This document shows positions 4,865 to 64,000 of a stretch of DNA of 64,000 nucleotides, one piece after another. Location of the stretch: the NCBI RefSeq assembly GCF_029227915.1, contig NC_079878.1, positions 8,868,001-8,932,000 of the forward strand, read 5' to 3'. Under the pieces are notes generated by a model. That model was not told where the DNA came from and searched no databases. It was given only the letters and a program-made list of their open reading frames with translations. The stretch is from Hydractinia symbiolongicarpus. Lineage: Eukaryota; Cnidaria; Hydrozoa; Anthoathecata; Hydractiniidae. A program made the translations under genes and the position numbers. Every line of letters starts with the position of its first letter. Within the stretch, counting starts at the first letter, position 1.

Positions 4865-5234
4865 ATGGAAAAGTGGAGAATTTTTTGTTCCATTTTTTTG
4901 GTTGTACAAGTGTTAATTTGTACGCGAGCAGAAATTATTGAAAAGAAGAACTTTCTTATATGTCCTGAGAAGAAGGATGTTAGACATATTGCTGATGTTA
5001 CAATCAGTGGAAGTATACGCGACATAAATCGTAATTTCACGTATGCAGATATCAATGTTGATGAAGTATTAAGTGGAAATGAATACTTTCAAGACCAGAA
5101 GAATATTTCTATTAGTATAACTGCTGAGTATCAAGAGAAATGTGATATTCTACAGACCGGACAAAGATTGGTATTCTATCTAAATAGAGGATACAAACTT
5201 TTAGGCACATTAAACAATTTGTTGACATTCAAAG
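4865..5234 (+). CDS. Exon 1: signal peptide and agrin NtA-like (OB/NTR-fold) domain
   Basis: Residues 1-22 form a signal peptide (basic start, hydrophobic IFLVVQVLI, cleavage likely after TRA). The mature part matches the pattern of the agrin N-terminal domain: CPEKK near the start, a beta strand ADVTISGSI, YADINVDEVLSG, and KCDILQTGQRLVFY, corresponding to the conserved Cys pair and 'TGD.R.FF' strand of agrin. In agrin this domain binds the laminin coiled coil. A sequon NFT is present. Donor AAAG|GTATAT, phase 1. The end of the NtA fold is missing from this exon, so a further small exon in the following intron is possible. Confidence 0.75.
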
Positions 5235-8200
5235 GTATATTTGTCATTTTTTTTTAAAAAAATTACCCGTGAAAACTAGAAATATTTAGTTTTTCTCCTT
5301 CCTACTTTGTGTTTGAAAAAAGTTAACACCTTATTTTCAATACCATAATTTTTATAATAACATCCTTCTTTTATTTTATTTATTTTTAAATTCTTTATAA
5401 AAGATATTAAAAAAGACGATGTTGTTTCGTCTTTTCTCCTAGTTGAAAAATAGTCGACGGAAATGCATAAACAAAGCCTAGGAAAAACCAGAGTCACAAA
5501 TGCTACCGCGCGCCACCTTTTTTAATTAGAGACATAAATTCTACGTTAAGCCTGGAACTGTTTTTTAAACTCTGCATGAAATCTTCCGAAAATTTATGGA
5601 GTATGTTCCCTGTTTTATAGCTTTAAAATTCTTTTCAGTAATACACCTTACAATCTATCAATACATTTTTTAATTATCTTAATATTTTGCAAGTTAGCGG
5701 TTTAAATTACCAATAATCAATTCCTCAAGTTAAGATCGTGCTCCTTGTAAAAAAACGTGTAGCACTTTTTTTTTCGACAGGAAATAGGCTTTAGAGAGAA
5801 GGAAAAAGATCATACGCGTTTGAGTTTTGAGGTTAGACGTACTTCAGATCAGTCGAGTAGTATCTTTGCTGCATCATAGTAACCAAAGGACCACAATGTA
5901 AAAATAGTAGTGTATCATCACAGAAAAGACAACAAACATATTAAAAACACAAACATGTTTAGAAATTCTTTTCCAGGCCATTTTATCCAACGCGGCAAAC
6001 CATCAAATAAGATTCTGATGATAGAATTGGGAACCAGGTTGACGAAACTTTACTTTCGTTTATAAGTTGCTTTGTCTGCCGGCTTATATCTTAAGTTTGT
6101 TTTTCGGCAACGGTTAATTAAACCGAGAAATGAAAGTAAACATATCCATGTGGTTCACCGCGCGAAACATTCGAATACATGTGTTGCAGGTTGCTGCAGA
6201 CTTCTTGATGTGCAATCAGATTGTTTTCTGAGAGGGCTAATCGGCGATTCACAACGAAACTTAGTGGAGTAAGAAATTTTCTTGTTGTTGGTAATGAGAT
6301 TTAAATTTGAGTCAGTCAAGGAAAACTGCTAGCTATATATTATAATTTTCTGTAAAGAACACACTATATATAAGTTTTATGCATATCAAAATGTGCAATA
6401 AGAGAAATGTCAAATATGAGAGAGAGATCCTGATTTATAAGGTTTTCCATAATTGATTAATTTGACAGTATATTTTTAACTTGTTAAAAGGACACTCTAA
6501 TTTAATAATTGATAAATATTTCAAATCCTGATTCAACATTGGGATTTAACATACTTGATACAAGGGATGCGATGCCAGTAAATTAAAGTTATTTAAGATT
6601 TTAGTGCTTTTTTGCCTTTGCTGAACATGTTCTTTTAGGGAGAAGCAAGACAATGTAAATTGCCACCAAGGAAATTTTTTTTTTCAGTTGATCAGAGAGA
6701 AAATATCTACGGTTTGGTCTAGATAATTAAGTGGACTTAAATTAAGCTTGAAAATACTGAAATAGTGAAGAATATAAAAATCTAAAGTCATCTTAATAGC
6801 AATATATATGTAAGAACTTTGTGGAATCTTACATTTAGCTAATATTGGTAAAACATTTTCTCCAAAAAAGAACTGTCTAACAAACATTAATTGTAGTGCT
6901 TTTTGGATCTTTATATCTGTATAAATCTATCAATTTCATTATTTTCCCTATGTAAGTCTGCCAGAACTATTTTTTAGCAGACAGACAGATAGAATTCCCC
7001 TTATTATTAGTACAGAAATATACATCACTTATTCTTATCTTTTCTTAATTTATATCTAACTGAAAATTGCAATCCAATAGATTCAGTAATAATAATTAGT
7101 AACAATAAAGGTATTGTTGTTTAACAAATAAGGCATATGAAATCTTTGCAAAAATCAGACAGACAAACAGACAGACACAGATAGCATATATATTAGATAA
7201 GAATTTTTTATATATATAAAATGACTGTGTAATTCAGTCCTGCAGGCTTTTGTCTTATTTCAATCTTACTATACTCAATCTTTTCAGGTTTACACTATTT
7301 TACACCAAAATTTTATTCAAGCTTTCAATTTTTTTTTAAAAAAATATAATGTAATTGGTATTTAACGTGATTAGAACTATGTATGTAAAGAGACTTTGTT
7401 AATGCACATTTATGTATTTTTTTACTTATATTTAGATGGCAACAATGGCTTTGGAGTTTCAGCTCGTAAAAGACGAGCTGCAGAAGCCACATGTTCCAAG
7501 AAATGTTCCTATGGTGGTCACTGCGACATTCATCCATACACAGGTCTTGCATTCTGTTCATGTCATAAGATATTTTGCACAAAAGAATACGATCCAGTTT
7601 GTGGTGATGATGATTACACATATCCAAATGAATGTGTTATGAGGCATAATTCTTGCATCAAACAAAGAAAAATTACAATTTCTTATCGCGGAGTTTGTAG
7701 TAAGTACTTTAACAACTTTTTTGGTTCTAAAATGTTTGTCTATGTAAAACTTTGCCCTTAAAATCTAGAACACATTGTTAAAATTTCTCATTCACAATTT
7801 TACTAAAAATTAACAGAAAAAAATCAATTCTGGTAATTAACTTCTACTACTTTAGAAAAGAATCTGTTTTCTAATGCCACTGCTAAAGCTTTATCATTAT
7901 CTTCACAATAATAACAAACTAATTTTGTAATCAATATCTCTAATACGTGTTGTAGTTTTCTAAGTAATTGAAATTTCAAAATGAGGCTTAGATATGTTTA
8001 TGTGAAAAACACAATCAAGCTTAGACTATTCCTACATTATATTTATTGGAAAAAAACTTGAAAGTTGAAATGATCCCTTTTCTTTTAGTAAAAGAACAGA
8101 GACAAAATTAAATGTATAATTGCAGAAGGCAAGTTCAGACATTAAAGTGGTGTGCATTAAGTCTTATTGCGTATAAGAGATTAGAAAATTAAAATACACA

Positions 8201-11200
8201 TAACACGAGAAAAACACACATGAGAAGGATTCACCAAGACTGGGCAATATGCATAGCATATATGCTTAAGCAATTCCCGTATCTGAGCCTTAATATGCTT
8301 ATAGGCATTATATGCTGATAAAAAAGCATGTATGTATCAATAAAAGTTAGGAATACCATATATTGGTTTATAATTATTAGAAGCAATCAGATTGTTTCAC
8401 CTTCTTCATATAATAACCCTTTTAAAATCTTTTTAGACGTGTTCAGTTGCAAAGATTTACGTGATTCTGGGTATGCTCATCTTGACGGCGAATATTTTTT
8501 CAATCCTGTCAAGTCCTGCAATTTTCCAATCAAAGTTTATTGCCATGGTATGAATACAAAGAATCCAAAAGATTACATCACACTTCCAACTGGCCCTGTT
8601 AACAATTATGCTATCATTTATGACAAAAGAATGCCATTTGCTTCAAAGTATAAAGATGAATGCATCAGCCCTCAGAATAGCATTGTCTATAGCAAATCTG
8701 GTATTACTCGATTTAACAAGGTTTGTTTTTAGATTTCCTAATAAGCTGTTTTTTTGTTGTTTTTTTTGAAAGTGAACATGCTTTTTATTTTTATTTTTCA
8801 ATTACATCAAGTTTGTTAGCCAGTAATTCTAAGTGCATGGAACCTATATATTGAAAATTTCTGTTGGAGTTGTTGTTGGAGTTATTCTTTAAAGGAAATA
8901 TCAAGTTTTTTTGTACAGAAAACCTTTAAAGAGTATGTACCTTTTTTTTAAATCTCAGTTGGGAAAATGATCCTAATATTCTTATATACATGTCCAGGTT
9001 AAAGTTAACTTCAACTCCATGGCTATTGTTCAAGATGATTACCAATATGCTGAGACTAATTCAAATGGTTCTCCCATACCTTTTGGTACAGCTGGTGATT
9101 GCTATTCTGCAAGTCTAAATCAAGAATGCAGAAAGGGAGGATTCATGATTGATCTGACAGGAACAGGTTTAAAGGTAAAAGACAATGTTGAATGGACTGT
9201 TAAATCTGAAACACCTGGCATGAAAATAAGTGGATTCAACAATGATAAAGGTTTGCAAATATCTGCTAAATGTGGTGGTTGGTGCGGACAATGTTTACCA
9301 AAATCTAGCCTGCGAATTGAATTAGTTAGATGCAATATGAATATTGGTAAGTTTTTGCGTCATGCAATTTTGCACTATGTTAACATGTCCTTTAGGCAGC
9401 CCTGTGCATACATAATAATGTATTATTTTTCGTAGAAATGTGTACTGGTATAAGTTGTCCTTATTATGGCCGTTGTGAAGAAGTTGGAAACAGCTTTCAA
9501 TGTCAATGTTCAATTGTGTGCACCAAAGAATTTTCTCCTGTTTGTGGTGATGATGGGAAAACCTATAACAATGAATGTGAAATGCAAAAAGCTTCATGCA
9601 ATCGAAAGAAATACATTAAAGTTCAATCAATGGGAGAATGTGGTATGTTTTTTCTTTTGTTATAAATAAAGCTTGTAGTTGTTAGTAAAAGTTAATATAA
9701 AAATCTATAAAAATATTTGCTTTTAGGCAAAGGATCATGTGCCACTAAAAATTGCCACAATTATGCAACCTGTGATGTATCAAGTGGAAAAACTACATGC
9801 AAATGTTTTCATCAATGTGACAAAGAGTTTAAGCCAGTTTGTGGGTCTAATTACAGAACCTATATCAATGATTGCCATCTTAAATCTGAATCTTGCAATA
9901 GACAAGCCAAAATTACAGTGGCAAACCAAGGCGTCTGTAGTATGTATCCCAATTGTTGTTAATAATTAAAAAATAGGTTCTTCATTTTATGATGAGACAA
10001 TATCTTAACACTATAGTGATGAGGTGTTATTAACACTTGGATGTGAAAAATGTTTTGTTTTATAGGCAAAAAATTGTGAAAACTGTGAAAATAATGTAAA
10101 CTGTATTTTGTTATATAACTCTTAAAACGCTTTTGAACATATTTTAAAAATTGCTATTTTTGTCATAAAAAATTCTTAGCATTTGCATATATATTTATAA
10201 TAATACGGAGACTGTGTCTGTCCGTAACAGGCAAAGTGGATGTGCTCATTTTCCTTTGATGTTGCCGAAAAATGCATGTCTAATATGCTAAGTTTTCTGA
10301 CGTTATGGCGCGACGTCAATAACACCTTTAACGTCAATATCCTATATTAAATTAATGAGGCCATTACAGTGCAACTAAAAATTTGAGGCTAAATAACTTG
10401 GAAACGAGGTGGTGACGTCAATGATTTTTCACCGCGTGGGTAACTAGGAACCACTTAGGACCAATTTGGGTAAATTTCCCAAATCTGGGTCACCAAATCC
10501 GTTTCGGAATGGACGGTTGATGACGTCATCTAAAAACCTTCAAACCTTAATATCTCAGCAACAGTTTGTAAAAAGTATATAATCCTATACATTTTCTTGA
10601 TCAGCGTTTTAAGATCTATATGTTGAAGGCAACAGGTGTACAAATTTCTAAAAAAAAATTCGGTTTGGACGAGGCCATTGCAGACGTCTGCAAAATTTTT
10701 AAACCTTTATATCTCATTAACCGCTCATCAAAAGCACATGATCATATACATTTTCTTGATCAGCGCTTTAAGCTCTCCACAAAAGAGGCAACATGAAAAC
10801 AAAATTCTAAATTTATTTTAGTGGATGGGTTGCTGACGTCATCAAAATTTTTTTTCCTGCCTGAGTGGATTTTTCCACGGGCCTTATCGACCAGTATATT
10901 TATAAAAGTTGTAAAAGCTTTTGTAGATATCCTAAATATCTTTATATGTTGTTATAAAACTGTTCAGAATCTTCTATGCAAAACATAAACATAAACATCT
11001 GCGAGTCTTGAAATCTAACATGTTATTTCGCACATATTTCTAAAATAAGCAAAGTAGGAATTATGGAGCATCATTTTGAACACTTATTTTTTTACTAGGA
11101 TATGCACCAAATAAACCATTTGCATTTGATGTTGTGTTTGCTTTGGGTGGATATGGACCTGATGCTGATGTTTTGTTTAATCGTCAAAAAGAATTTGTCA

Positions 11201-59200: not shown

Positions 59201-62200
59201 CAGATAATCTTCCAGAGTATTATGCTAATGTAATTGATGCAATTAAAAAAGCAGGTAGGTTGAAGCTAAAACTGCACGTCAATGTAAATACTGTACTTTT
59301 TTAAATATGTGCTTTTTAGTTATTTCTTTCTTATATATAGTTCAAAGATCGAAGTCATATCCGAGTGACGTTGGACTTGCCTTCTTATCTTCTGATCAAT
59401 CGAATGTGATTTTCAATTCTCAAAAGAGTATGGCTAAGAAATTAATCAATAAATACAAAGTTGGAGTTGCCAGTACACTGTTTGGTATTGTACACAATGG
59501 CAAAGAACCAGAAATTGTCTTACACATTGGAAATGCTGACACAAAGGCTGATACCACCACTGTACTTGATTCGTTGATGTATCACGATAATAAAGAAGAA
59601 AATGACAAGATGATGAAAACATTGAGTTTAACAGAGGATATGTTTAATAGAAAGAAATCTTTAAGAAAAGTTAAATCAAACTCTCTCTTTGTTTTTATTG
59701 GCAAAGCTGCTGTTTCAGTGTTAACAAATGAAGCGAAACAAAAAATACAAGAATTTGAAAAGAACGATTTCACACCCATATTTGTCGTTCTTGAAAAACT
59801 ATCTAATAAAGAGAGGGCTATTTTATTGAATATTATTAAAGATCCAAAACGAATAGTTAATCCTGATTCTGTTGATGATTTTAATGGAAAAGATATTCTC
59901 GTCACTACGACATCAGGTACTTAAGTAAAACTATTTTGCATACAGAATTTATTTTATTACAAAAAAATTTATTTAATTTAAATGTGATTTTTTGTGGTAA
60001 ATTTACCGTGCATAAAGTTTGATATATGTGACATATTTTTGTGTTGTGGCATAATGTAACAATAATTTGTACTGTCTTACTTCTGTACAGATCCTTGTAA
60101 AGAAAACATATGTGGAGAAGATTCAGTCTGTGTACGAACATCAGCCTTGTCTGCAAAATGTGCCTGTCCTTTATGCAAAGAAACATATGCACCTGTTTGT
60201 GGAGATAATGGTAAAACATATGCAAGTCAATGTCATTTGAATAACTATGCCTGTACAAGCAGAGAATTAATCCAAACAGTAAAGCAAGCACCATGTGGTA
60301 TGTTAATTACATGATCTTTAATGTTATTTAATTCCTGAAAAAGAATAAAATGATCTGGCTAAGAATATATATTTTGAACACTTTTTTGATTAACTATTAA
60401 TTATGTTTGTAGGAGTGTCTCAATTATCAACACCTTTGGATATTGTTATTGCCATCGATGCATCTGACAGAGTAACAGATCAAGATATATCAAAATTAAA
60501 AGAATTTTTTAAGGCGTCGTTGAAAGGATATGATTTAAACTCGAGCAAGATATCAGTCACTGTTTTATCATATAGTGACTCGGTGAAAAACATTGGACGT
60601 ATAGAGAAACCTGATTCTATAAACACAGTTTTAGAGAACCTTTTAAAGCAGAATGGAAAAGCAAATATATCTTTAGTGCTTAAGGAAATCAATAACAATT
60701 TATTTAAAGAGGACTTGGGAAATGGCAAAATGTTAGTGCTCCTGGTTCCTGCAAGTCCTACTGAATATGCTGAAGACCAACTTAAACATTTTGGAAGTGA
60801 ATTTAACAAAAAAAACATTAAAGTTGTTGTTCTTCGTATCGGGAAAACATATGATGTTAAAGATCCATTGGATGATGTTACAGGAAAAGGAAAGAACATA
60901 GTGAATATTGATAATTCCGGTAGTCTTCCAGATGTGATTGGGAAGTTGGAGGAAATTGTGGGAAATGCACTAAGTAAGTTTTTTTACATTGTAGTCTAAA
61001 GTGAATGTGGCTGTTCTTTTTATAATCATCGTAAGCCTGTGCAAAAAATCACGGTAATTTGCCTTTCCCAAGAAGTTAGCCGAATTCACCCTCCACTGCT
61101 CACAGCTGCCATCTTTGGCTGATAGACACACAGCAATCATTATAATTTAGGGTTCGTTCGCTGTAATATTATCACTTACAATTACAAGAATGTCTTATAT
61201 TTGTGTGTAAACAAACTTTCTGTTTATTTTTTACAGCAACTCCTTCTAAAGTTGATTTAGCTTTCTTATTTGGTCCATATGCAACTAAAACTCAACATCA
61301 GCTTCAAAGTAATTTTATCAAACAACTGTTAGCGAATGTAAGTTTTGCAAATAAAGATGTCAAGTTCGGCATATTAACATATGGCAAAGAAACAACAATA
61401 AATTACAAACTTGGTGAATTGCCAACACAAGCTTCACTAAATAATGCGTTATTAGGATTAAAACGACAAGGAAAGGTATTTGATATGGCTTCTTTGTTAA
61501 GAGTGACAATGACAGAATTTTTCAGCGTTAAAAATGGAGCAAGGAAGGGAGTACCAAAAACAGTTGTGTTATTTACTACCGAAGACCTACCAGACAGCAC
61601 AGATTTTAGTCCATTCAAAAAAGATGGAATAAAACTTATTGTTATTGGCTACGGTGATAAGGTGGATTCAATGCCTCTAACATCAACAGTTGGTCAGGAC
61701 GGATCTGTGTTTGTACCAAAGACAGAAAAAGAACTGCAAGATATTTTGGATAACGTGCTAAAGGAGGCTCAGAAGCCTGGTAGGGATATAAATTTAGTGG
61801 TCCTTCTTGTCTGACAAGAATTCTGAAATTTTAATTTTCCTTTTTTTATCTTTGAATATAGTTGTTTAAGATGTGCCATTTTTCTTGTAATTATATTTTG
61901 TTTCGTGATTTGTCAAAAATACGGAATGCATCGACCATTTTTTTGCTATCTTATTCAAAATATATATATATATTTTCTTAGCAACATGTTCTACCAAAAA
62001 GTGTCCCTTGTATGGAAATTGTGTTATGGATGCAGTCAATAATGTAGAATGCGTATGCCCAGTTTGTCAGGATGATTACGATCTAGTATGTTCAACGAGT
62101 GGAGTTACCTACGCATCAACATGTAGATTGAAACGCGAAGCTTGTCTCAAAGAAATTGATCAAAAAGTCTTAAAAAACAGTGCTTGTGGTAACTGTGTTT

Positions 62201-64000
62201 ATTTTATAATAATATTTTATGCCTTAAAAGAAAAACAGTTTTAATATTTTCTGACAATTTATATGCAAAATTTTTAATATATTGAATGTTTGTAATTAGG
62301 TATTTCCAAAAAACTCGATATAGTTTATGCTCTTGACACTTCTGGCGATACGACTGACAAAACTGTTATGGATCTAAAGAAATTCGTACAAGGCTCTCTC
62401 AAGCTTTATGATTTTTCCAATGACAAAACACGCATTGGATTATCAACTTTTGGTGACTCCTTTGATGTCACTTTGCCTGCATCTGATGGAACAAACATGT
62501 ATATTGTTGAAGATGCCATCAGAAAAAGTAAAATCATTGGTGGCATGAGAAATCTTACCAATATGCTAACATCAATCAACAGCAAAGCATTTTCAAATGA
62601 TCGAGGTAATATTGCAAAGGTGTTCCTGTTAGTTCTTGCTGGAAAAAATGCGAAACCAATGGAGAAAGAATTGAGATTTGCCTCGAAACAGCTTCAATCA
62701 CACAACATCCAGATGTTTATTGTCGCAGTTGGAGATGATTTGGATGACAATGAGATTTTGGCATTATCACCAGATAAGAACAATATATTTTTGGCAAAGG
62801 AGAATAAAGATATACCTGGTGGCATAAAGGAATTAGAACAATATATTGGGAAAATTAATGGTAAAGATAATATGTATAATTTCTTAGATTATATTTGCGT
62901 TCTGTAGGATCTCGGTTTTTTTCAAAAGCCTATCTAATTTATGTCGTCCTTTCTTCTCATTATTTTTAATATTATGTTATAGCTTTAAAAGAAATGACAA
63001 ATCTAGCCATTGTATTTGGGCCATCAAACTCAATTAAATCTGTTAAGAAAAACATTGTTGCTGCTATAAGTAAACTAACTGTTTCGACGGAAAAAGTTCT
63101 ACCAGCCATTGTTACCTATGGAAACGAAGTAAAAACACTCTTTGAAATCGGTGATTTACCAAATCTTCAAATTGCTTCTAAAGAAATTCAAAATCTCCAG
63201 GAATCTCAACCGGGAAACACTATTACTGAAGCACTAAAGAGTTCAAAATCTTTATTAACCAGTAGAAGACCATCTGCAACAAAAACAATATGGCTTGTCC
63301 TATCAAGTAATATTGCAAACCCTGATGCTCTAAAAAACAAGATCAAGGAAATGCAAGGAGATGGTTACCAGGTTTTAATTTTTGCAACCAAAGATATTGA
63401 TAATAAAATAACAGATATTATTAAGGATGGCAACATCGATATTGTCAAAATAATGGATGATATAAATAAACTTGACACTGACAAAGTCATCGATTCAATA
63501 GAAACAGGTATTTGATATGTTCATGAAAATTGATCTTAAATATTTGAACACATTAATAGTAAGAAATAAGAAACAACAGCTGCATCCCTTCCAGTTTATT
63601 GATTTCAATATCAATAGATCTAGCCACTACTTTTGTGAATAATCTATCAGTTCTCTTCTAACTTTAAGATATTCCGAATGAAAATAAAATCAGTTGATCT
63701 TATTCACAAAATTACTATCCTTCTTCTTCTTTTTAACACTTGTGTACACAAATACACAAACATTTGTGTATTTTTCTGATGTCACATAACCTGAATTTCC
63801 CAGACCCGACTTAATTACTATTTTTAGAATATGTTAACGGAATATCTGATTGTCTAACATAGCCTTTATCTTCATCTTCTGAATTAGATCCTTGCAATAA
63901 GATGAAATGCACCCATTCATCTATTTGTGTCAAGAAGCAAGATAAGACAGCGGAATGTGTTTGCATTTCATGTGAAACATTTACATATAAACCCGTGTGT
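4865..64000 (+). CDS. Giant secreted NtA-FS-GON-(vWA-vWA-FS)n protein gene; 87 exons, 3' end outside window
   Basis: A single spliced gene predicted to encode at least about 11,800 residues. Order: signal peptide, agrin NtA-like domain, FS1, GON domain, FS2, FS3, vWA1, FS4, then 25 cassettes of vWA-a, vWA-b, FS. One signal peptide starts the series, every exon joins in frame, and no terminal stop exon is seen between modules, so I read it as one gene rather than a cluster. Introns are GT-AG, 73 bp to about 2.2 kb, and phase 1 except those inside GON and vWA-21 (phase 0). FS modules have ten Cys (FOLN hairpin plus Kazal), as in agrin and follistatin. The vWA domains resemble the matrilin/collagen VI/cochlin group, with the GARPxxPK and VxVIGVG signatures. 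Probable role (inference): matrix or cell-surface scaffold. The true transcript could use alternative exons or split into several transcripts; no RNA evidence is available here. Confidence 0.85.
5235..7435 (+). other. Intron 1 (2.2 kb)
   Basis: Longest intron. It holds short (CAGA)-rich tracts at 6978-6991 and 7156-7184 and AT-rich filler. One weak candidate for a missing NtA exon is described separately at 5977-6057. Nothing else coding was recognised. Confidence 0.6.
5977..6057 (+). other. Speculative small exon completing NtA
   Basis: After a good acceptor (TTCTTTTCCAG) an open frame of 81 bases would keep phase 1 on both sides and encode a peptide containing NKILMIELGTRL, loosely similar in pattern to the last strand/helix of agrin NtA (SSLMRITLRNLEE). 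The donor TTTC|GTTTAT is poor; the better donor at 6038 breaks the frame. Low confidence. Confidence 0.15.
7436..7699 (+). CDS. Exon 2: linker with furin-type site, FS module 1
   Basis: Phase 1 in and out, 88 codons. A Gly/Asn linker is followed by SARKRRAA (RKRR at 7465-7476), a consensus proprotein-convertase site, and then a ten-Cys FOLN+Kazal module with the Kazal core VCGDDDYTYPNEC. Cleavage there would release or nick the NtA domain from the rest. Donor TTGTA|GTAAGT. Confidence 0.88.
7700..8436 (+). other. Intron between FS1 and GON
   Basis: 737 bases of AT-rich sequence with no exon recognised. Around 8250-8330 there are several TATGC/GCATA words, giving weak self-complementarity. Confidence 0.5.
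8437..8720 (+). CDS. Exon 3: GON domain, N-terminal half
   Basis: Encodes the start of a GON domain as known from ADAMTS9/ADAMTS20 and worm GON-1: SCKDLRDSG, LDGEYFF, IKVYCHGM, PKDYITLPTGPVNNYA and GITRFNK are its signature stretches. Phase 1 in, phase 0 out (AACAAG|GTTTGT). GON normally sits at the C-terminus of ADAMTS proteases; no metalloprotease or thrombospondin repeats are seen here. Confidence 0.85.
8998..9346 (+). CDS. Exon 4: GON domain, C-terminal half
   Basis: Starts in phase 0 (CCAG|GTTAAAGTT). Continues the GON fold: DDYQYAET, FGTAGDCYSA, GGFMIDLTGTGLKV, VEWTV and CGGWCGQCLP. The AGDCYS and GTGL motifs and the CGG-CG-C cluster are diagnostic. Phase 1 out. Confidence 0.87.
9436..9642 (+). 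CDS. Exon 5: FS module 2
   Basis: Ten-Cys FOLN+Kazal unit directly after GON; Kazal core VCGDDGKTYNNEC. The 207-base exon, phase 1 on both sides, is the standard FS exon size for this gene. Confidence 0.9.
9727..9939 (+). CDS. Exon 6: FS module 3
   Basis: FS unit beginning GKGSCATKNC rather than the usual DPC; Kazal core VCGSNYRTYINDC. 213 bases, phase 1. Separated from FS2 by an 84-bp intron, so FS2 and FS3 look like a local tandem pair. Confidence 0.9.
9940..11098 (+). other. Intron between FS3 and vWA1 with dispersed repeat
   Basis: 1.16 kb intron. About 10190-10890 differs from the flanking AT-rich DNA and looks like an inserted non-coding repeat; see the separate repeat entry. Confidence 0.6.
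10190..10890. repeat. Interspersed element with internal ~155-bp degenerate repeats
   Basis: The motif GACGTC or ACGTCA recurs (about 10310, 10331, 10412, 10521, 10683, 10834). Two diverged copies of a ~155-bp unit share AACCTTnATATCTCA, CATATACATTTTCTTGATCAGCG, TTTAAG and AGGCAACA blocks (starts near 10520 and 10680), and a third copy begins at 10833. The ends carry TATATTTATAA-like words (near 10190 and 10892). No ORF. Likely a non-autonomous dispersed repeat. Confidence 0.55.
11099..11668 (+). CDS. Exon 7: vWA domain 1 (type b, unpaired)
   Basis: Complete vWA fold of 190 codons: first strand DVVFALGGY lacks the MIDAS Asp, then VNIGLLTYD, ERGMDAAADSIF, LVLFTDVSG (beta4 acidic residue kept) and DTIMIGAGNKV. 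It is the only vWA without a type-a partner before it, so the array starts with a half cassette. Confidence 0.9.
11669..12182 (+). other. Intron 7
   Basis: 514 bases of AT-rich sequence; no exon, repeat or site recognised. Confidence 0.5.
12183..12392 (+). CDS. Exon 8: FS module 4
   Basis: FS unit starting ARCRQLDC; Kazal core VCASNGKSYASSC. 210 bases; donor TGTC|GTATGT gives phase 1. Confidence 0.9.
12605..12844 (+). CDS. Exon 9: vWA 2 (type a), first part
   Basis: First strand VVFAFDASDSTS carries a full D-x-S-x-S, one of only three in the array. RVGLLLFG forms the next strand. An RGD (12790-12798, context LERGDNQ) lies in the following loop. Ends in the Gly-Gly region (RKQG|G) at a phase-1 intron. 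Confidence 0.88.
13078..13398 (+). CDS. Exon 10: vWA 2 (type a), second part
   Basis: Continues GGKGDLPKAL, DKEIILFTNGAD and NMKFGITGEV, then ends PLPG. The two exons together give 187 codons, the usual size. The intron falls inside the GG motif before the third MIDAS loop. Confidence 0.87.
13622..14173 (+). CDS. Exon 11: vWA 3 (type b)
   Basis: First strand DIIFALGGN without Asp; RIGVVVYGE, STKNGARPNMPK (the classical GARPxxPK of matrilin/collagen vWA domains), VAIIFADDK, VKVVFVHSG. Single exon, phase 1 both sides. Confidence 0.9.
14433..14642 (+). CDS. Exon 12: FS module 5
   Basis: DPCLFVTC start; Kazal core ICADDGNSYSSEC. Closes cassette 1. Confidence 0.9.
14643..15063 (+). other. Intron between FS5 and vWA4
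   Basis: 421 bases, AT-rich, with a TATATATA run near 15020-15033. Nothing else seen. Confidence 0.5.
15064..15417 (+). CDS. Exon 13: vWA 4 (type a), first part
   Basis: FVIMDNSNQ gives D-x-S only. GSLITYSN and VLILSRG follow; the exon stops right after the beta4 strand (ILSRG|), phase 1. The GG-R-N motif is poor (NNLPRLDRAL). Confidence 0.86.
15418..15890 (+). other. Intron inside vWA4
   Basis: 473 bases; includes two similar words, AGTACCTTCATAAGTACCCACT and GTGGGTACTTCATCC (15480-15535). No exon found. Confidence 0.45.
15891..16100 (+). CDS. Exon 14: vWA 4 (type a), second part
   Basis: Supplies the last helices and strands (TELANMKNMM, ARLYMVTLHD, NLFITDKNQ). The usual VxVIGxG strand is replaced by YMVTLHD, so this domain is divergent. 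Phase 1 to 1. Confidence 0.83.
16367..16912 (+). CDS. Exon 15: vWA 5 (type b)
   Basis: MVLSFGLSG in place of D-x-S; VAAVKYGN, VPKVIVFLTNQKP, VKIVVIGIGDD. 182 codons; donor CCAG|GTATTT. Confidence 0.9.
16913..17293 (+). other. Intron between vWA5 and FS6
   Basis: 381 bases; nothing recognised beyond AT-rich sequence. Confidence 0.45.
17294..17500 (+). CDS. Exon 16: FS module 6
   Basis: DPCLTAIC; Kazal core VCASNGRTYGSKC. All ten Cys present; standard 207-base exon. Confidence 0.92.
17779..18342 (+). CDS. Exon 17: vWA 6 (type a)
   Basis: VVFLLDSSNEVS; RVSIVNVGE; RIGGDKNVD; QVVVVIIAG with no acidic beta4 residue; VKVSIIGVGKG. A clear type-a member. Confidence 0.92.
18651..19184 (+). CDS. Exon 18: vWA 7 (type b, divergent)
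   Basis: First strand LLVFWPSRY has neither D-x-S nor the LG of its class. AHIAALTYN, ITVVFIIDSMP and KIILLGVGEN keep the fold pattern. No GAR motif. 178 codons. Confidence 0.87.
19420..19626 (+). CDS. Exon 19: FS module 7
   Basis: DACTKIQC start, Kazal core VCGSNGLTYTSSC. It contains no Met codon, so start-codon-based ORF calling would miss it. Donor TGCA|GTAAGT. Confidence 0.9.
19627..21672 (+). other. 2.0-kb intron between FS7 and vWA8
   Basis: Second longest intron. It contains a candidate inverted-repeat element (20296-21552) and a short tandem AAAAGTTCnAAATACCCTAAA pair at about 21058-21102. No exon recognised. Confidence 0.5.
20296..21552. mobile_element. Possible inverted-repeat element in intron
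   Basis: Left edge GAGTTGCGAGTTCC...GCGAGTTGC (20296-20325) faces right edge GCAACTCACGGAACTCACAACTC (21529-21552) as inverted repeats. Further CAACTCAC words occur near 21500. No transposase frame and no clear target duplication, so this is tentative. Confidence 0.35.
21673..22230 (+). CDS. Exon 20: vWA 8 (type a)
   Basis: LVYLIDTSEGIS; RVSIVTYGT; KNGGPPQLVEA replaces the GG-R-N motif; TIIIFMASHP; AKVVIVGLNKD. Donor AACTG|GTAAAA. Confidence 0.92.
22356..22907 (+). CDS. Exon 21: vWA 9 (type b)
   Basis: LGFLFAASE; VGSVIYGT; KSNGARPTVPKVLV; VKIIPISVGPDAD. The 125-bp intron before it separates it from its type-a partner. Confidence 0.92.
23058..23264 (+). CDS. Exon 22: FS module 8
   Basis: DPCNKISC; Kazal core ICGKDGKTYSSEC. 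Ends TGTT|GTAAGT, so the shared codon becomes TCC (Ser) at the join. Confidence 0.9.
23484..24050 (+). CDS. Exon 23: vWA 10 (type a)
   Basis: MIYLIDSSDGVS; VGILNYAS; NGKRNFKL; LLALLVDGRS, a rare type-a domain with an Asp in the beta4 loop; IDLLIITTDGN. Confidence 0.92.
24312..24848 (+). CDS. Exon 24: vWA 11 (type b)
   Basis: IMFLLGATG; IGVVIYGS; NVLVLFVNQKP; IKVVVIGMGNE. The following 99-bp intron is open in frame, so it could be retained without truncation. Confidence 0.9.
24948..25157 (+). CDS. Exon 25: FS module 9
   Basis: DPCSNTKC; Kazal core VCGDNGKTYASEC; 210 bases. Acceptor TTTTACATCTAG. Confidence 0.9.
25429..25992 (+). CDS. Exon 26: vWA 12 (type a)
   Basis: FIFVLDISNAV; TGIGFILSG; GSETRDFLKAV; KVVVFISSAP; VRVLFIGFGSA. 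Donor TTAAAA|GTAGGT was chosen because it keeps phase 1; the GT at 25997 does not. Confidence 0.88.
26288..26836 (+). CDS. Exon 27: vWA 13 (type b)
   Basis: VGFVLGFTS; AGIITYGN; QSSGGRPNSEKTLVVF; VNIVSIGVGGK. Typical type b. Confidence 0.92.
27002..27214 (+). CDS. Exon 28: FS module 10 (divergent Kazal)
   Basis: DPCLSSPC start; Kazal core VCASDGSTQASEC has Gln where nearly every other copy has Tyr, and two extra residues precede it (KSPHFVC). 213 bases. Confidence 0.88.
27403..27969 (+). CDS. Exon 29: vWA 14 (type a)
   Basis: LIYLLDVSQLT; RMEIVLFDD; LKEKKEADFKKAF without GG; VLVLITTSNN; VKIVTVGLGKR. Acceptor TATTTATATAG. Confidence 0.9.
28118..28654 (+). CDS. Exon 30: vWA 15 (type b)
   Basis: ILFILGTGQS; HAGTIIYSP; NGLNEAIRVF; SIVLFTDQN with the beta4 Asp; MKVIVVTLGKN. 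Confidence 0.9.
28868..29074 (+). CDS. Exon 31: FS module 11
   Basis: DPCDEKVC; Kazal core VCGSDGLSYASQC. Donor TGCT|GTATGT. Confidence 0.9.
29168..29728 (+). CDS. Exon 32: vWA 16 (type a), with twin donor sites
   Basis: IVYAIDTSNNI; MALVNYGS; LGGSRRIDNVL; LILFVGGS; VKITVVGFGEN. The 3' end is duplicated: AATACAG|GTAG at 29716 and AATACAG|GTAA at 29728. Both give phase 1 and differ by four residues (NTG versus NTGRNTG). Confidence 0.9.
29836..30369 (+). CDS. Exon 33: vWA 17 (type b)
   Basis: LLFIVGASSS; VGVLSYGR; NPGDGKRLDLAL; IIVMLDQRPEPD; IELITIGFGKN. A textbook type-b GDGxRxD motif. Confidence 0.92.
30576..30782 (+). CDS. Exon 34: FS module 12
   Basis: DPCKEKAC; Kazal core VCGNDGNSYASLC (Leu replaces the usual Glu/Lys before Cys). 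207 bases. Confidence 0.9.
30783..31272 (+). other. Intron between FS12 and vWA18
   Basis: 490 bases. It contains a hairpin-forming sequence at about 30926-30960 (AACGACCTGT...ACAGGCCGTT, one mismatch) followed by a T run. No exon seen. Confidence 0.5.
30926..30960. repeat. Intronic hairpin followed by T run
   Basis: Arms AACGACCTGT and ACAGGCCGTT (one mismatch) around the loop TGTGCT, then TATTTTTC. It lies inside an intron; function unknown. Confidence 0.4.
31273..31824 (+). CDS. Exon 35: vWA 18 (type a)
   Basis: IIFLLDISSDV; RVGLIGFGE; IGGTRNLDIGM, closest in the array to the canonical GGTRT loop but with Asn for Thr; VIVALTTGSE; PNFIFVEFGDS. Confidence 0.92.
32072..32614 (+). CDS. Exon 36: vWA 19 (type b) with an extra Cys pair
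   Basis: IGVLIGAQS; VGVILYGK; PADGFRLDKAL; SDCSPGTVACPNK contains two Cys eight residues apart, where other copies have NGAR; LLLFTDRKPDE; VKIVSVVLGL. The Cys pair probably forms a loop disulfide (inference). Confidence 0.91.
32889..33095 (+). CDS. Exon 37: FS module 13
   Basis: DACKNVKC; Kazal core VCGSDGKTYGNEC. Acceptor TTGTTAACAG. Confidence 0.91.
33390..33788 (+). CDS. Exon 38: vWA 20 (type a), first part
   Basis: VVYIIDGSSSVP has complete D-x-S-x-S; RFSIATFGK; SGGDRRIDLEL; LVVLVLYGR. The exon ends before the last VxVIGVG strand (KLVRG|), phase 1. Confidence 0.9.
34051..34209 (+). CDS. Exon 39: vWA 20 (type a), second part
   Basis: 53-codon exon giving LGVKIAVIGVGDK and the terminal helix. 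Acceptor CATACGTTAG. Together with exon 38 it makes 186 codons. Confidence 0.88.
34329..34549 (+). CDS. Exon 40: vWA 21 (type b), first part
   Basis: ITFILGASN; AIAVILNK; ends NYIITLR at a phase-0 intron (CTGCGG|GTAAGT), the only phase-0 intron in the vWA array. The YG motif of its class is missing. Confidence 0.87.
34623..34923 (+). CDS. Exon 41: vWA 21 (type b), second part
   Basis: Phase 0 in, phase 1 out. TPINARNLLSSL, KTIVLFVDKLP, FRIIVVGAGSK. The 73-bp intron before it is one of the two shortest in the gene. Confidence 0.87.
35034..35240 (+). CDS. Exon 42: FS module 14 (divergent start)
   Basis: Begins GISCNSC instead of DPC; Kazal core VCGSDGKTYANVEC has one residue more than usual before Cys. 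207 bases, ten Cys kept. Confidence 0.89.
35321..35887 (+). CDS. Exon 43: vWA 22 (type a)
   Basis: IVIAVDGSEDV; RVSILVYSN; GNGKRNLTLVF; YILLFINGPND; IQITVVGVGGK. An 80-bp intron separates it from FS14. Confidence 0.92.
36123..36662 (+). CDS. Exon 44: vWA 23 (type b)
   Basis: MIFVMGIDEG; IGVVIYGS; PSSEGIKEGL; SIILFTTKAP; IKVIVVGVGEK. Acidic C-terminal segment DNDDVDNVV. Confidence 0.92.
36835..37041 (+). CDS. Exon 45: FS module 15 (divergent Kazal)
   Basis: DPCIKKDC; the Kazal core is VCDDNEETHASEC: Gly after Cys is Asp, Gly before the Thr is Glu and Tyr is His. These changes hit the most conserved Kazal positions while all ten Cys remain. Confidence 0.88.
37130..37687 (+). CDS. Exon 46: vWA 24 (type a)
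   Basis: VAYMMDASSNN; VSIISYGK; KEGREDVPAAL; VLIVFRNNG; VKIITVGLGEQ. An 88-bp intron precedes it. Confidence 0.91.
37836..38399 (+). CDS. Exon 47: vWA 25 (type b)
   Basis: LGIVLGVSSS; VGIVLYGE; YPGDGSDVNKAL; TKNGARIGVGKVILLFVDKKSDEDP in two adjoining blocks; IKIITIGVGSD. A near-consensus type-b domain. Confidence 0.93.
38693..38902 (+). CDS. Exon 48: FS module 16
   Basis: Because exon 47 ends in A, the join gives NPC rather than DPC. One extra residue in CKSKGYSLVC makes it 210 bases. Kazal core VCGSDGRTYATKC. Confidence 0.9.
39004..39528 (+). CDS. Exon 49: vWA 26 (type a, degenerate)
   Basis: VVYLVHDTSKL keeps D-x-S with an extra His. The central part is reduced: no YG strand and no GG loop (EQTEIYINQITPSSGEQ instead). 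LVLILDQKID has the beta4 Asp; VRVVVVGAGTD is intact. 175 codons, the shortest type-a domain apart from vWA44-like size. Confidence 0.87.
39626..40165 (+). CDS. Exon 50: vWA 27 (type b with Asp)
   Basis: VVILDTKAVR is the only type-b first strand with an Asp (D-T-K, not D-x-S). VGIVLNGD; NRGEGYDIDSSL; LVIFRTYEA; YKVVVVGLGQD. Preceded by a 97-bp intron. Confidence 0.91.
40498..40707 (+). CDS. Exon 51: FS module 17
   Basis: DPCRLVTC; Asn-rich CDKNNNKPVC before the Kazal core VCGSNGLTYQSKC. 210 bases. Confidence 0.9.
40891..41508 (+). CDS. Exon 52: vWA 28 (type a, longest)
   Basis: MFYLLDISKDV; FSVFFYPSS; an enlarged middle loop (SEEFKEIKFKEDRKLDTAL); VIVAFVAGESDP; IQLLFIVDKKK replaces VxVIGVG. 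206 codons, about 20 more than its class. Confidence 0.89.
41711..42247 (+). CDS. Exon 53: vWA 29 (type b)
   Basis: IGILMGGPY; VGVVTYGQ; TNYGARKLAAKRLLVFVTD; VKIIVLTVGLP. Ends LNPG with donor CCAG|GTGTGT. Confidence 0.92.
42248..42844 (+). other. Intron between vWA29 and FS18
   Basis: 597 bases; AT-rich with no exon or repeat recognised. Confidence 0.45.
42845..43051 (+). CDS. Exon 54: FS module 18
   Basis: DKCKTTSC start; CDFGKC hairpin is one residue short and the C-terminal loop one longer. Kazal core ICASNKRTYASVC has Lys for Gly. Confidence 0.9.
43052..43561 (+). other. Intron between FS18 and vWA30
   Basis: 510 bases, T-rich runs, nothing recognised. Confidence 0.45.
43562..44128 (+). 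CDS. Exon 55: vWA 30 (type a)
   Basis: LVYVIDTSKDS; ISVVKYAD; SKGTRKVDNAL; TANGARANAKKLVILF, the GAR motif more usual in type b; ATITVIGLGTD. Confidence 0.92.
44462..45004 (+). CDS. Exon 56: vWA 31 (type b)
   Basis: LMFVVGTTPD; AGLITIGE; GYNIDAALTL; IIVLFLVDKPDEDP; VKITVVDIKGD lacks the GVG turn. Confidence 0.91.
45165..45371 (+). CDS. Exon 57: FS module 19
   Basis: DPCDIIAC; Kazal core VCGRDGRTYANKC. Donor TGTG|GTATAA. Confidence 0.91.
45492..46064 (+). CDS. Exon 58: vWA 32 (type a)
   Basis: LVVAFDASASVD has complete D-x-S-x-S; RLNLLSFGN; LGGARSISSVL; LLLLVITGNTNP; FKTVVIAVGQN. 191 codons. Confidence 0.92.
46065..46611 (+). other. Intron between vWA32 and vWA33
   Basis: 547 bases, the longest intron between two partner vWA exons. 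No coding content recognised. Confidence 0.45.
46612..47175 (+). CDS. Exon 59: vWA 33 (type b)
   Basis: VVFAMGASSN; VGILTYGN; NPGDGAKFDLAL; SIILFTDSKNSG with Asp; IKLVVVGFGKD. Longer acidic linker (SPDDTADP) at the start. Confidence 0.93.
47306..47512 (+). CDS. Exon 60: FS module 20
   Basis: DPCENADC; Kazal core VCGDNGKTYGSKC. 207 bases. Confidence 0.91.
47631..48182 (+). CDS. Exon 61: vWA 34 (type a)
   Basis: ILFAIDSSSGTS; LGLLNYGS; VDGERNLSPVF; LVVFVLGKINP; IKITLVALSTG. Donor CTCAGG|GTAAGA gives phase 1. Confidence 0.91.
48312..48872 (+). CDS. Exon 62: vWA 35 (type b)
   Basis: IAILFGAHG; LFSLVEIGE; TENGARDGAGREIILF; VKITVVPVGKN. The segment after the third strand is lengthened (ALQSPINVLKNIKFVNK). 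Confidence 0.9.
49037..49243 (+). CDS. Exon 63: FS module 21
   Basis: DACADVKC; Kazal core VCGDNGITYASKC. Confidence 0.91.
49337..49897 (+). CDS. Exon 64: vWA 36 (type a)
   Basis: VIYIIDTSKYTS; VGIIATSA; GYGKLNLNNVL replaces the GG loop; LLLFITTSP; FKISVISIGDA. Donor ACCA|GTATGT. Confidence 0.9.
49971..50543 (+). CDS. Exon 65: vWA 37 (type b)
   Basis: IVAIIGSNA; MSVVLNGN; NKGNGYNLGKSI; TDDGARRDAAKTALIIVD; AKVIFISVGEK. The 73-bp intron before it is one of the two shortest in the gene. Confidence 0.91.
50735..50941 (+). CDS. Exon 66: FS module 22
   Basis: DGCSQKSC start; Kazal core VCGSDGRNYASPC. Acceptor TATTTTTTGTAG. Confidence 0.9.
51049..51642 (+). CDS. Exon 67: vWA 38 (type a)
   Basis: LVFVIDSSNKV; ISLVNYGE; LGGKNNMEEAL; SEHGGRDGVHKHVVLF; ASITVVGVGKH. 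198 codons, with an elongated C-terminal segment (LLNVLFGPKFVEVAD). Confidence 0.92.
51847..52419 (+). CDS. Exon 68: vWA 39 (type b)
   Basis: VVFVFSSAGV; IGAIIDAN; EGESKDIAQAV; TIVIFFNKID; VTLVAVPVGKG. Confidence 0.91.
52420..52908 (+). other. Intron between vWA39 and FS23
   Basis: 489 bases with a TATAG/GTATAG-type simple repeat at about 52496-52527. Nothing coding. Confidence 0.5.
52909..53115 (+). CDS. Exon 69: FS module 23
   Basis: DKCQEKSC; Kazal core LCASDGKTYASEC (Leu before the Cys where most copies have Val or Ile). Confidence 0.91.
53249..53812 (+). CDS. Exon 70: vWA 40 (type a) with a lone Cys
   Basis: VVFAVDTSDAV; IAFTSFGS; MGGKVDYVNML; LILFAVGDANP; ISVFVVSLLDK. A single Cys (IPTCVTVV) near the C-terminus is unusual, as the vWA domains here are otherwise Cys-free except vWA19. 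Confidence 0.91.
53895..54461 (+). CDS. Exon 71: vWA 41 (type b)
   Basis: IGIIFSGNN; VGIIKPTA (YG lost); KSNGGRNHAFKSLLVILHGD; VKTVVVAIGGS. An 82-bp intron precedes it. Confidence 0.9.
54549..54752 (+). CDS. Exon 72: FS module 24 (shortest)
   Basis: DACLKAKC; the FOLN loop is one residue shorter (VENGNKASC), giving the only 204-base FS exon. Kazal core VCGNNGKTYASKC. Confidence 0.91.
55030..55587 (+). CDS. Exon 73: vWA 42 (type a)
   Basis: VAFVIDTSSDV; ISIVNYGR; IGGKRNMGSMF; TNQNGARSKAVKTAILFVHG; IKVIVIAIGEN. Confidence 0.92.
55724..56287 (+). CDS. Exon 74: vWA 43 (type b), alternative acceptor possible
   Basis: VGILMSTFD; FSASIYGD; KGDGVVKNAL; VLLLFIDSGG; VKIIVILSGDP. An upstream acceptor (TGCTTTTAG, exon start 55670) stays in frame and would add 18 residues. 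I chose 55724 because it gives a linker like those of the other copies. Confidence 0.88.
56413..56619 (+). CDS. Exon 75: FS module 25
   Basis: DICDNKVC; Kazal core VCGSDGSTYSSEC. Preceded by a very long T tract. Confidence 0.91.
56779..57306 (+). CDS. Exon 76: vWA 44 (type a, short)
   Basis: LIHAVDMSTDV; VKLVGYAD; LSGFNLEKML; GLILYLNTNL; FIITVVLQPGS. 176 codons; the GG loop and VGVG turn are lost. Confidence 0.88.
57452..58021 (+). CDS. Exon 77: vWA 45 (type b)
   Basis: LGFIMGSYS; IGFITYGK; NPNNGNNVTIAL; LVVFIDQPLLD; VQVTFVALMDK. The intron before it has ACATATTGACCTTG twice (57387 and 57431). Confidence 0.91.
58220..58426 (+). CDS. Exon 78: FS module 26
   Basis: DQCKKDSC; Kazal core ACASNGKLYASRC (Ala before Cys, Leu for Thr). 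Confidence 0.9.
58697..59254 (+). CDS. Exon 79: vWA 46 (type a) with MIDAS-like Thr
   Basis: IVFVVDSSQDVS; RTSVVSYGD; FGGERTLYDAL, the only copy with Thr in the GGxRT loop, the position of the second MIDAS ligand; IVFVSSGPV; YTFVVLDDN. Confidence 0.92.
59341..59916 (+). CDS. Exon 80: vWA 47 (type b)
   Basis: VGLAFLSSDQ; FGIVHNGK; an elongated charged middle (NKEENDKMM); LFVFIGKAA; TPIFVVLEK. A divergent type-b domain after an 86-bp intron. Confidence 0.89.
60091..60297 (+). CDS. Exon 81: FS module 27
   Basis: DPCKENIC; Kazal core VCGDNGKTYASQC. Confidence 0.92.
60413..60973 (+). CDS. Exon 82: vWA 48 (type a)
   Basis: IVIAIDASDRV; ISVTVLSYSD; NGKANISLVL; LVLLVPASP; IKVVVLRIGKT. Donor CTAA|GTAAGT. 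Confidence 0.91.
61237..61779 (+). CDS. Exon 83: vWA 49 (type b)
   Basis: LAFLFGPYA; FGILTYGK; VKNGARKGVPKTVVLFTTED; IKLIVIGYGDK. Confidence 0.92.
61982..62188 (+). CDS. Exon 84: FS module 28
   Basis: Starts ATCSTKKC instead of DPC; Kazal core VCSTSGVTYASTC, with Ser-Thr after the Cys instead of Gly-Ser. 207 bases, ten Cys. Confidence 0.9.
62300..62860 (+). CDS. Exon 85: vWA 50 (type a)
   Basis: IVYALDTSGDT; RIGLSTFGD; IGGMRNLTNML; VFLLVLAGKNAKP; IQMFIVAVGDD. Confidence 0.92.
62983..63507 (+). CDS. Exon 86: vWA 51 (type b)
   Basis: LAIVFGPSN; PAIVTYGN; SQPGNTITEAL; RRPSATKTIWLVLSS; YQVLIFATKD replaces VxVIGVG. 175 codons, short for its class. Confidence 0.9.
63508..63887 (+). other. Last intron in window
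   Basis: 380 bases; TTTGTGTATTT / ACACAAATACACAAACATTTGTGT near 63740-63775 is locally self-complementary. No exon seen. Confidence 0.4.
63888..64000 (+). CDS. Exon 87: FS module 29 (cut by window edge)
   Basis: DPCNKMKC start and six further residues-to-Cys spacings match the FS hairpin; sequence stops at YKPVC, just entering the Kazal core. It shows the gene continues to the right. Confidence 0.88.

Follow-up and report, generated by a model that had tools for sequence, protein, structure and literature searches.

Gene model within the window

Does the array of vWA and follistatin-like (FS) domains on contig NC_079878.1 (C4) of Hydractinia symbiolongicarpus belong to one giant secreted protein and, if so, where does that protein end and what might it do? 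The window analysed is the 64,000-nt stretch C4:8868001-8932000 (+ strand), and positions below are those of the window unless a contig is named. The accessible text of two sources describes 15 chromosomes and a GC content of 35.85% for this species (PMC10411563), and 480,922,349 bp in 78 scaffolds for HSymV2.1 (PMC13119343). The assembly that we searched holds 480,894,487 bases in 76 contigs, and an extra 90 kb around the window was analysed.

A sequence-only reading of the window had counted 29 follistatin-like modules and 51 vWA domains. Both counts were confirmed with our own iterated HMMs, built from the window ORFs, which returned 29 FS matches and 55 vWA ORF matches; the latter amount to 51 domains because four are split over two exons. 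All FS and vWA matches fall on the + strand and none on the − strand. In the ten window ORFs submitted, Pfam matched VWA, Kazal_1/2 and the two halves of a GON domain.

A first dynamic-programming splice model, for which the domain exons served as the training set, gave 102 exons in the window. In curation, 15 small domain-less exons were removed and the ends of six exons, together with the end of exon 1, were reset manually. The curated model has 87 exons, 35,409 nt and 11,803 aa with no stop, reproducing the earlier figures of 87 in-frame exons and ~11,800 residues; the number of exons depends on the curation, whereas the counts of 29 FS and 51 vWA do not. Every one of the 86 introns is GT-AG, and 84 are in phase 1. 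With F for FS and v for vWA, the domain string in the window reads FFFvF(vvF)x25, the final FS being truncated at the window edge.

All features lie on the + strand. Exon 1 (4865..5234) opens with an ATG and a hydrophobic stretch, a signal peptide (residues 1 to ~22), and continues into a weak NtA-like candidate. FS1 is encoded by exon 2 (7436..7699; Pfam Kazal_2, 9.6e-11). Between the NtA candidate and FS1 is an RKRR furin-like site (7465..7476), one of two R-x-[KR]-R motifs in the joined protein, at which cleavage might free the N-terminal domain. The GON domain occupies two exons (8437..8720, Pfam GON 1.1e-17; 8998..9346, Pfam GON 1.9e-29) with a phase-0 intron inside the domain. There follow FS2 (9436..9642) and FS3 (9727..9939), a single vWA, vWA 1 (11099..11668; Pfam VWA 1.3e-13), and FS4 (12183..12392), these three FS modules all being matched by Pfam Kazal.

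The 25 vWA-vWA-FS units, placed by our HMMs and the curated splice model, are given here as span followed by vWA, vWA and FS. Units 1 and 2 each have a split first vWA: unit 1, 12605..14642 (12605-12844+13078-13398, 13622-14173, 14433-14642); unit 2, 15064..17500 (15064-15417+15891-16100, 16367-16912, 17294-17500). Next come unit 3, 17779..19626 (17779-18342, 18651-19184, 19420-19626); unit 4, 21673..23264 (21673-22230, 22356-22907, 23058-23264); unit 5, 23484..25157 (23484-24050, 24312-24848, 24948-25157); unit 6, 25429..27214 (25429-25992, 26288-26836, 27002-27214); unit 7, 27403..29074 (27403-27969, 28118-28654, 28868-29074); unit 8, 29168..30782 (29168-29728, 29836-30369, 30576-30782); and unit 9, 31273..33095 (31273-31824, 32072-32614, 32889-33095). 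Both vWA domains are split in unit 10, 33390..35240 (33390-33788+34051-34209, 34329-34549+34623-34923, 35034-35240). The array then runs through unit 11, 35321..37041 (35321-35887, 36123-36662, 36835-37041); unit 12, 37130..38902 (37130-37687, 37836-38399, 38693-38902); unit 13, 39004..40707 (39004-39528, 39626-40165, 40498-40707); unit 14, 40891..43051 (40891-41508, 41711-42247, 42845-43051); unit 15, 43562..45371 (43562-44128, 44462-45004, 45165-45371); unit 16, 45492..47512 (45492-46064, 46612-47175, 47306-47512); unit 17, 47589..49243 (47589-48182, 48312-48872, 49037-49243); unit 18, 49337..50941 (49337-49897, 49971-50543, 50735-50941); unit 19, 51049..53115 (51049-51642, 51847-52419, 52909-53115); unit 20, 53249..54752 (53249-53812, 53895-54461, 54549-54752); unit 21, 55030..56619 (55030-55587, 55727-56287, 56413-56619); unit 22, 56779..58426 (56779-57306, 57452-58021, 58220-58426); unit 23, 58697..60297 (58697-59254, 59341-59916, 60091-60297); and unit 24, 60413..62188 (60413-60973, 61237-61779, 61982-62188). 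Unit 25, 62300..64000 (62300-62860, 62983-63507, FS from 63888 onward), meets the window edge within its FS.

The N-terminal NtA candidate

The module order proposed for the window was borne out for FS, GON and (vWA-vWA-FS)25; its NtA label is weak. Pfam gave no NtA match in the window ORFs or in the N-terminal 211 residues, and a search of this genome with PF03146, at E up to 10, gave two matches, neither at exon 1. The approaches used were Pfam, PDB phmmer, the PF03146 genome search, agrin-NtA profiles, Smith-Waterman and single-sequence AlphaFold, the last giving an uninformative model of exon 1 with a pLDDT of 43.6. With an agrin-NtA profile, exon 1 ranked fifth or third against 2,000 shuffles in two runs, with an hhalign probability of 22% in the former. 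When a second NtA from the same genome was added to the profile, exon 1 ranked first of 2,001 and the hhalign probability was 61%. An NtA identity for exon 1 is thus weakly suggested, the moderate support coming only from the profile that includes the same-genome NtA.

At C12:23860513-23860785 and C12:23906287-23906559 lie two NtA domains that score above the Pfam threshold. They are clearer than exon 1, and their sequences possibly mark a conventional agrin-type gene.

The array continues to a modelled stop codon beyond the window

The sequence-only reading had seen no end to the gene. This holds for the window alone; extension to the right, as it had suggested, led to a modelled stop 56 kb further along the contig. 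The gene model spans C4:8,872,865-8,988,253, with its end 56,253 bases past the window. The array itself extends to position 124,794 in A-coordinates (genome coordinate less 8,858,000), and 3' of it come two LamG-3 exons, an FS, the exons for LG-EGF-LG and a final vWA that is closed by the stop.

The complete model comprises 180 exons over 115,389 bp and encodes 25,185 residues (2.77 MDa, pI 8.4) with 109 vWA and 58 FS domains, one signal peptide and one stop. The frame proposed from the window therefore stood, while the size of ~11,800 residues did not, the protein on the contig being about twice as long. The full order is NtA-like, FS, GON, FS, FS, vWA, FS, (vWA-vWA-FS)x53, vWA, LamG-3, FS, LG-EGF-LG, vWA. 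All 179 introns are GT-AG and 173 are in phase 1; they measure 73-2,201 bp, with a median of 152.

Of these exons, 86 were taken over from the model of the window and 84 come from running the splice program a second time; the ten at the C-terminal end were placed manually, guided by splice sites and phase. The exon borders are those of a curated splice-consensus model, in which two exons beyond the window edge carry two domains apiece, perhaps through missed introns. One splice-program intron was corrected after a second copy of the locus (copy B, below) was found to lack its donor, which changed the length from 25,219 to 25,185 aa. The domain-coverage, cysteine, metal-site, vWA-class and lag statistics reported below were computed on the 25,219-aa version; the counts of 58 FS and 109 vWA are identical in both.

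Matches to vWA and FS cover 94% of the whole protein. Only one 19-aa stretch in the joined protein exceeds a mean KD of 1.9, in agreement with the single signal peptide claimed from the window, and the same simple threshold revealed no other membrane-span-like stretch over the whole joined protein. There were no Gly-X-Y runs of four or more triplets. At the C-terminus, Pfam matched Laminin_G_1/2 in two stretches, plus EGF, and agrin was the best solved-structure match to LG-EGF-LG (5.8e-71). Pfam matched neither SEA nor laminin-type EGF in the 211 N-terminal and 889 C-terminal residues or the 10 window ORFs, and neither metalloprotease nor thrombospondin-1 domains in the scanned N-terminal ORFs or the C-terminus.

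LINE-type reverse-transcriptase-like frames, named by eye, flank the gene on both sides (L009 1763-4876, − strand; C4 ~9002470-9005398, + strand). Elsewhere in the assembly, C2, a 40-Mb contig, begins with a 15.8-kb mtDNA present twice in tandem, the two copies being 99% identical (C2:9924-11264 and 25766-27106 fall within them). This mtDNA has the gene order and code of arthropods and an arthropod-type COX1; it is probably food contamination (brine shrimp, whose mtDNA is of matching length) that was joined to a chromosome. The arthropod cuticle domain PF00379 gave no match in this assembly, though it gave none in the control genomes either and is a weak test by itself.

One gene or several

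In the curated model, the single secreted multidomain frame that had been proposed is continuous from one signal peptide to one stop. Phase 1 in 173 of 179 introns nevertheless means that neighbouring exons would join in frame regardless of gene borders. The locus could instead hold two or more genes or promoters giving shorter vWA/FS proteins, with the continuity of the frame arising from the shared exon-shuffling phase. The single-gene structure is a prediction of the genomic splice model, and the 2,046-bp intron 19 holds an ATG, a hydrophobic stretch and a phase-1 donor, a candidate internal first exon from which a second gene might start. Yet this was the one candidate in a scan of all introns of at least 300 bp, the joined protein has only one signal-like stretch, and the longest intron, at 2,201 bp, leaves scant space for intergenic DNA. 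We consider several genes to be improbable and a single gene encoding the whole array to be likely. On the splice-site evidence, one full-length mRNA would carry all exons. Since array exons are in phase 1-1, except for the split vWAs, in-frame exon skipping is possible.

Part of the exon chain is supported from a second sequence. P0126 (690 aa, JGI, from a 2,474-base contig) is identical to the C-terminus at 376 of 692 positions (54%), across the last eight junctions, and its best matches in this genome are the present locus and copy B. The contig is too short for introns, so it supports both the exon joins (last nine exons) and the protein end; it would appear to be a transcript.

Copy B lies at C4:260001-420000, 8.59 Mb away on the same contig, with an identity of 97.3-99.2% in gene blocks and 95.8-98.2% in flanking blocks. 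It retains 180 of 180 exons with all 179 AG and 179 GT sites, no change in exon length and one terminal stop; intron length is changed in 47 of 179. The coding sequences differ by 219 nonsynonymous and 166 synonymous substitutions, a dN/dS of 0.363 (0.30-0.42 by quarter and 0.414 for the portion inside the window), and neutrality is rejected with a binomial p of 4e-21. There is purifying selection in every quarter between the two copies. Copy B is either the other haplotype or a duplication and, as other loci are paired too, the assembly may carry unmerged haplotypes.

This pairing, with a near-identical copy some 8.6 Mb off on one contig, also bears on the possibility that the array is an artefact of assembly, as the earlier reading considered, or of annotation: a collapsed or expanded set of repeats, or a decaying pseudogene. 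Against this, same-position vWA domains in the first half of the array are only ~20% identical at every lag (for FS modules the mean across the whole protein is 39%), and residue differences of ~80% exclude the mis-stacking of identical repeats. Both copies moreover share the same 180 exons without a frameshift, at a dN/dS of 0.36. The divergence of the repeats and the conservation of every exon in copy B make an artefact very unlikely, to the point of being hardly credible.

vWA classes, metal sites and growth of the array

By alignment, a complete MIDAS (DxSxS...T...D) is present in none of the 109 vWA domains. Among first-position domains (n=56), 54 keep the first D, 54 the first S and 13 the full D-x-S-x-S, with the rest of the site in none. 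In the second position (n=53), none has DxSxS, G or S replaces the first D in 48, and the third-loop D is kept in 22. Because no vWA has a complete metal site, metal-dependent ligand binding is unlikely; judged from their sequences, the vWA pairs may play a structural role.

The two positions form two alternating classes, with 23% identity within and 18% between, and the nearest vWA belongs to the same class for 106 of the 109. A profile of 17 first-position vWA exons matched collagen VI alpha-3 best among solved structures (3.9e-184), with mussel PTMP1 next (2.6e-45). The FS modules carry 10 Cys in 56 of 58.

In the second half of the array, first-position vWA identity is 0.465 at a lag of three units, compared with ~0.24 at lags not divisible by 3. 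Identity peaks at lags of 3, 6, 9 and 12 units in the second half and does not in the first. A lag-3 super-repeat confined to the second half suggests a more recent duplication of nine-domain (three-unit) blocks on the 3' side, and it is by duplication of such a block that the array would have grown there.

Other repetitive loci were also observed. At C5:10743162-10756061, 18 vWA matches with near-identical scores are exactly 729 bp apart, another very homogeneous repeat; and at C9:16084017-16146669, a Clytia agrin-like query revealed a further FS-rich locus with three equal matches 1,825 bp apart.

Proposed function

From its sequence, the protein can be read as an agrin-type C-terminal end, a weaker N-terminal end, a collagen-VI-like vWA spacer and a GON insert. 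The reading that we favour, as the probable one though with reserve, is of a secreted matrix protein of ~25,185 residues from a single gene, with agrin-like ends, that serves as a matrix tether or spacer. As a tether or rod of great length, it would lie in the mesoglea/basement membrane or the stolon sheath. Its LG end would attach to ligands on the cell surface or in the matrix, and the N-terminal end would dock on the matrix; if the NtA is real, docking would be on laminin, a step about which we are doubtful. Between them, the metal-less vWA pairs would have a structural role, forming a spacer that probably self-associates, as those of collagen VI alpha-3 do, and would not act as integrin-like metal-dependent binders. 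With usual module sizes, the contour length would be several hundred nanometres.

More tentatively, this hydrozoan may make, as a single secreted chain of ~25,000 residues, what is possibly the longest extracellular animal protein known: an agrin in which a collagen-VI-like vWA spacer has taken the place of the middle, so that a tether of several hundred nm links matrix to cells. For comparison, Dumpy is ~23,000 aa long.

The earlier suggestion was of a lineage-specific matrix, glue, egg-coat or capsule component. In place of an unknown matrix or glue protein, the agrin/perlecan-type LG-EGF-LG and the last vWA point to one with an agrin-like end. A rival reading takes the protein for a secreted glue or coat, made of vWA pairs that associate with each other, which would serve in adhesion, in the egg coat or in the chitinous sheath (perisarc) and not as a basement-membrane tether; this is in our view unlikely, if a serious alternative. 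Giant modular adhesive proteins are known, as the accessible text on the flatworm adhesive protein Mlig-ap2 (14,794 aa) describes (PMC6410801), and mussel PTMP1, with its tandem vWA domains, comes second among the solved structures matched by the vWA profile. The agrin-type C-terminal LG-EGF-LG, however, fits receptor or basement-membrane binding, and Pfam found no lectin domain in the N- and C-terminal parts except the LamG-3 fold.

If the tether reading is true, 109 vWA domains and ~2.8 MDa would redefine the scale of secreted proteins, and a 75-kb coding chain would have practical consequences for secretion, folding and transcription. It would suggest a way in which phase-1 exon shuffling can join agrin-type ends to collagen-VI-type spacers, and one in which arrays grow by nine-domain blocks. 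Hydractinia being a laboratory hydrozoan, one could then test whether the role of a matrix tether depends on its length.

Comparison with known systems

Relative searches took candidates of 0.55-1.75x the query length; equally giant relatives fall outside that range. The N-terminal query gave 116 matches, mostly agrins and FS arrays, with collagen VI for the vWA and ADAMTS9/20 for the GON. A long query gave nine, the best a coral protein (P0117), and an approximate C-terminal query (~50 residues wrong) gave seven, P0126 and then pikachurin and neurexin. In the domain annotation of the matches to these three queries, GON was never found together with Kazal or VWA. Nor was a protein of this architecture found in the literature covered, which consists of the accessible parts of papers (PMC4224354 and PMC3927612 among them; few under subscription) rather than genome annotations. 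Among the sequences and papers covered, the architecture as a whole has no named counterpart. Its parts are not unique: the coral protein mixes 20 vWA with 4 FS.

In being giant, modular and secreted, the protein resembles flatworm Mlig-ap2 and fly Dumpy as these are described in the accessible text, where the modules are vWD, TSP-1, EGF, C-lectin and others in Mlig-ap2 (PMC6410801) and EGF-DPY in Dumpy (PMC2930355). With the GON-bearing ADAMTS proteases it has GON in common, while their metalloprotease and thrombospondin-1 domains have no match in the scanned N-terminal ORFs or C-terminus. It differs from MIDAS-type vWA ligand binders in keeping a complete metal site in 0 of 109 domains. Mussel proximal thread matrix protein 1 (PTMP1) has two matched vWA stretches in a solved chain of 454 residues.

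Collagen VI alpha-3, the best solved match of the vWA profile, shares the long tandem vWA arrays; the present protein has no Gly-X-Y triple helix and places FS between vWA pairs. The same HMM counts 109 vWA here against 9 and 17 in two collagen VI alpha-3 models (P0101, P0119) and 25 in a shark one (P0118). The coral protein P0117 (Acropora cervicornis, named collagen alpha-6(VI), 4,397 aa) is likewise cnidarian and likewise mixes vWA (20) and FS (4), but it has two WAP at the start, an irregular vWA-FS order and no Pfam NtA, GON or LG. Agrin-like FS proteins form a diversified family in the red-coral skeleton matrix, according to the accessible text of PMC7853314.

P0126 shows the end of LamG, FS, LG-EGF-LG, vWA and protein end in the same order, and represents the C-terminus only. 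Agrin, with perlecan and pikachurin, has in common with the present protein FS behind a possible NtA and a C-terminal LG-EGF-LG; the several FS modules of agrin compare with 58 here. Relative to agrin, no SEA or laminin-EGF was found in the parts scanned with Pfam, GON and 53 vWA-vWA-FS units are inserted, and a LamG-3 and a final vWA are extra. There are two agrin-type LG domains, plus the LamG-3, rather than the three LG domains of agrin, and the whole is ~12x the ~2,000 residues of the matched agrins.
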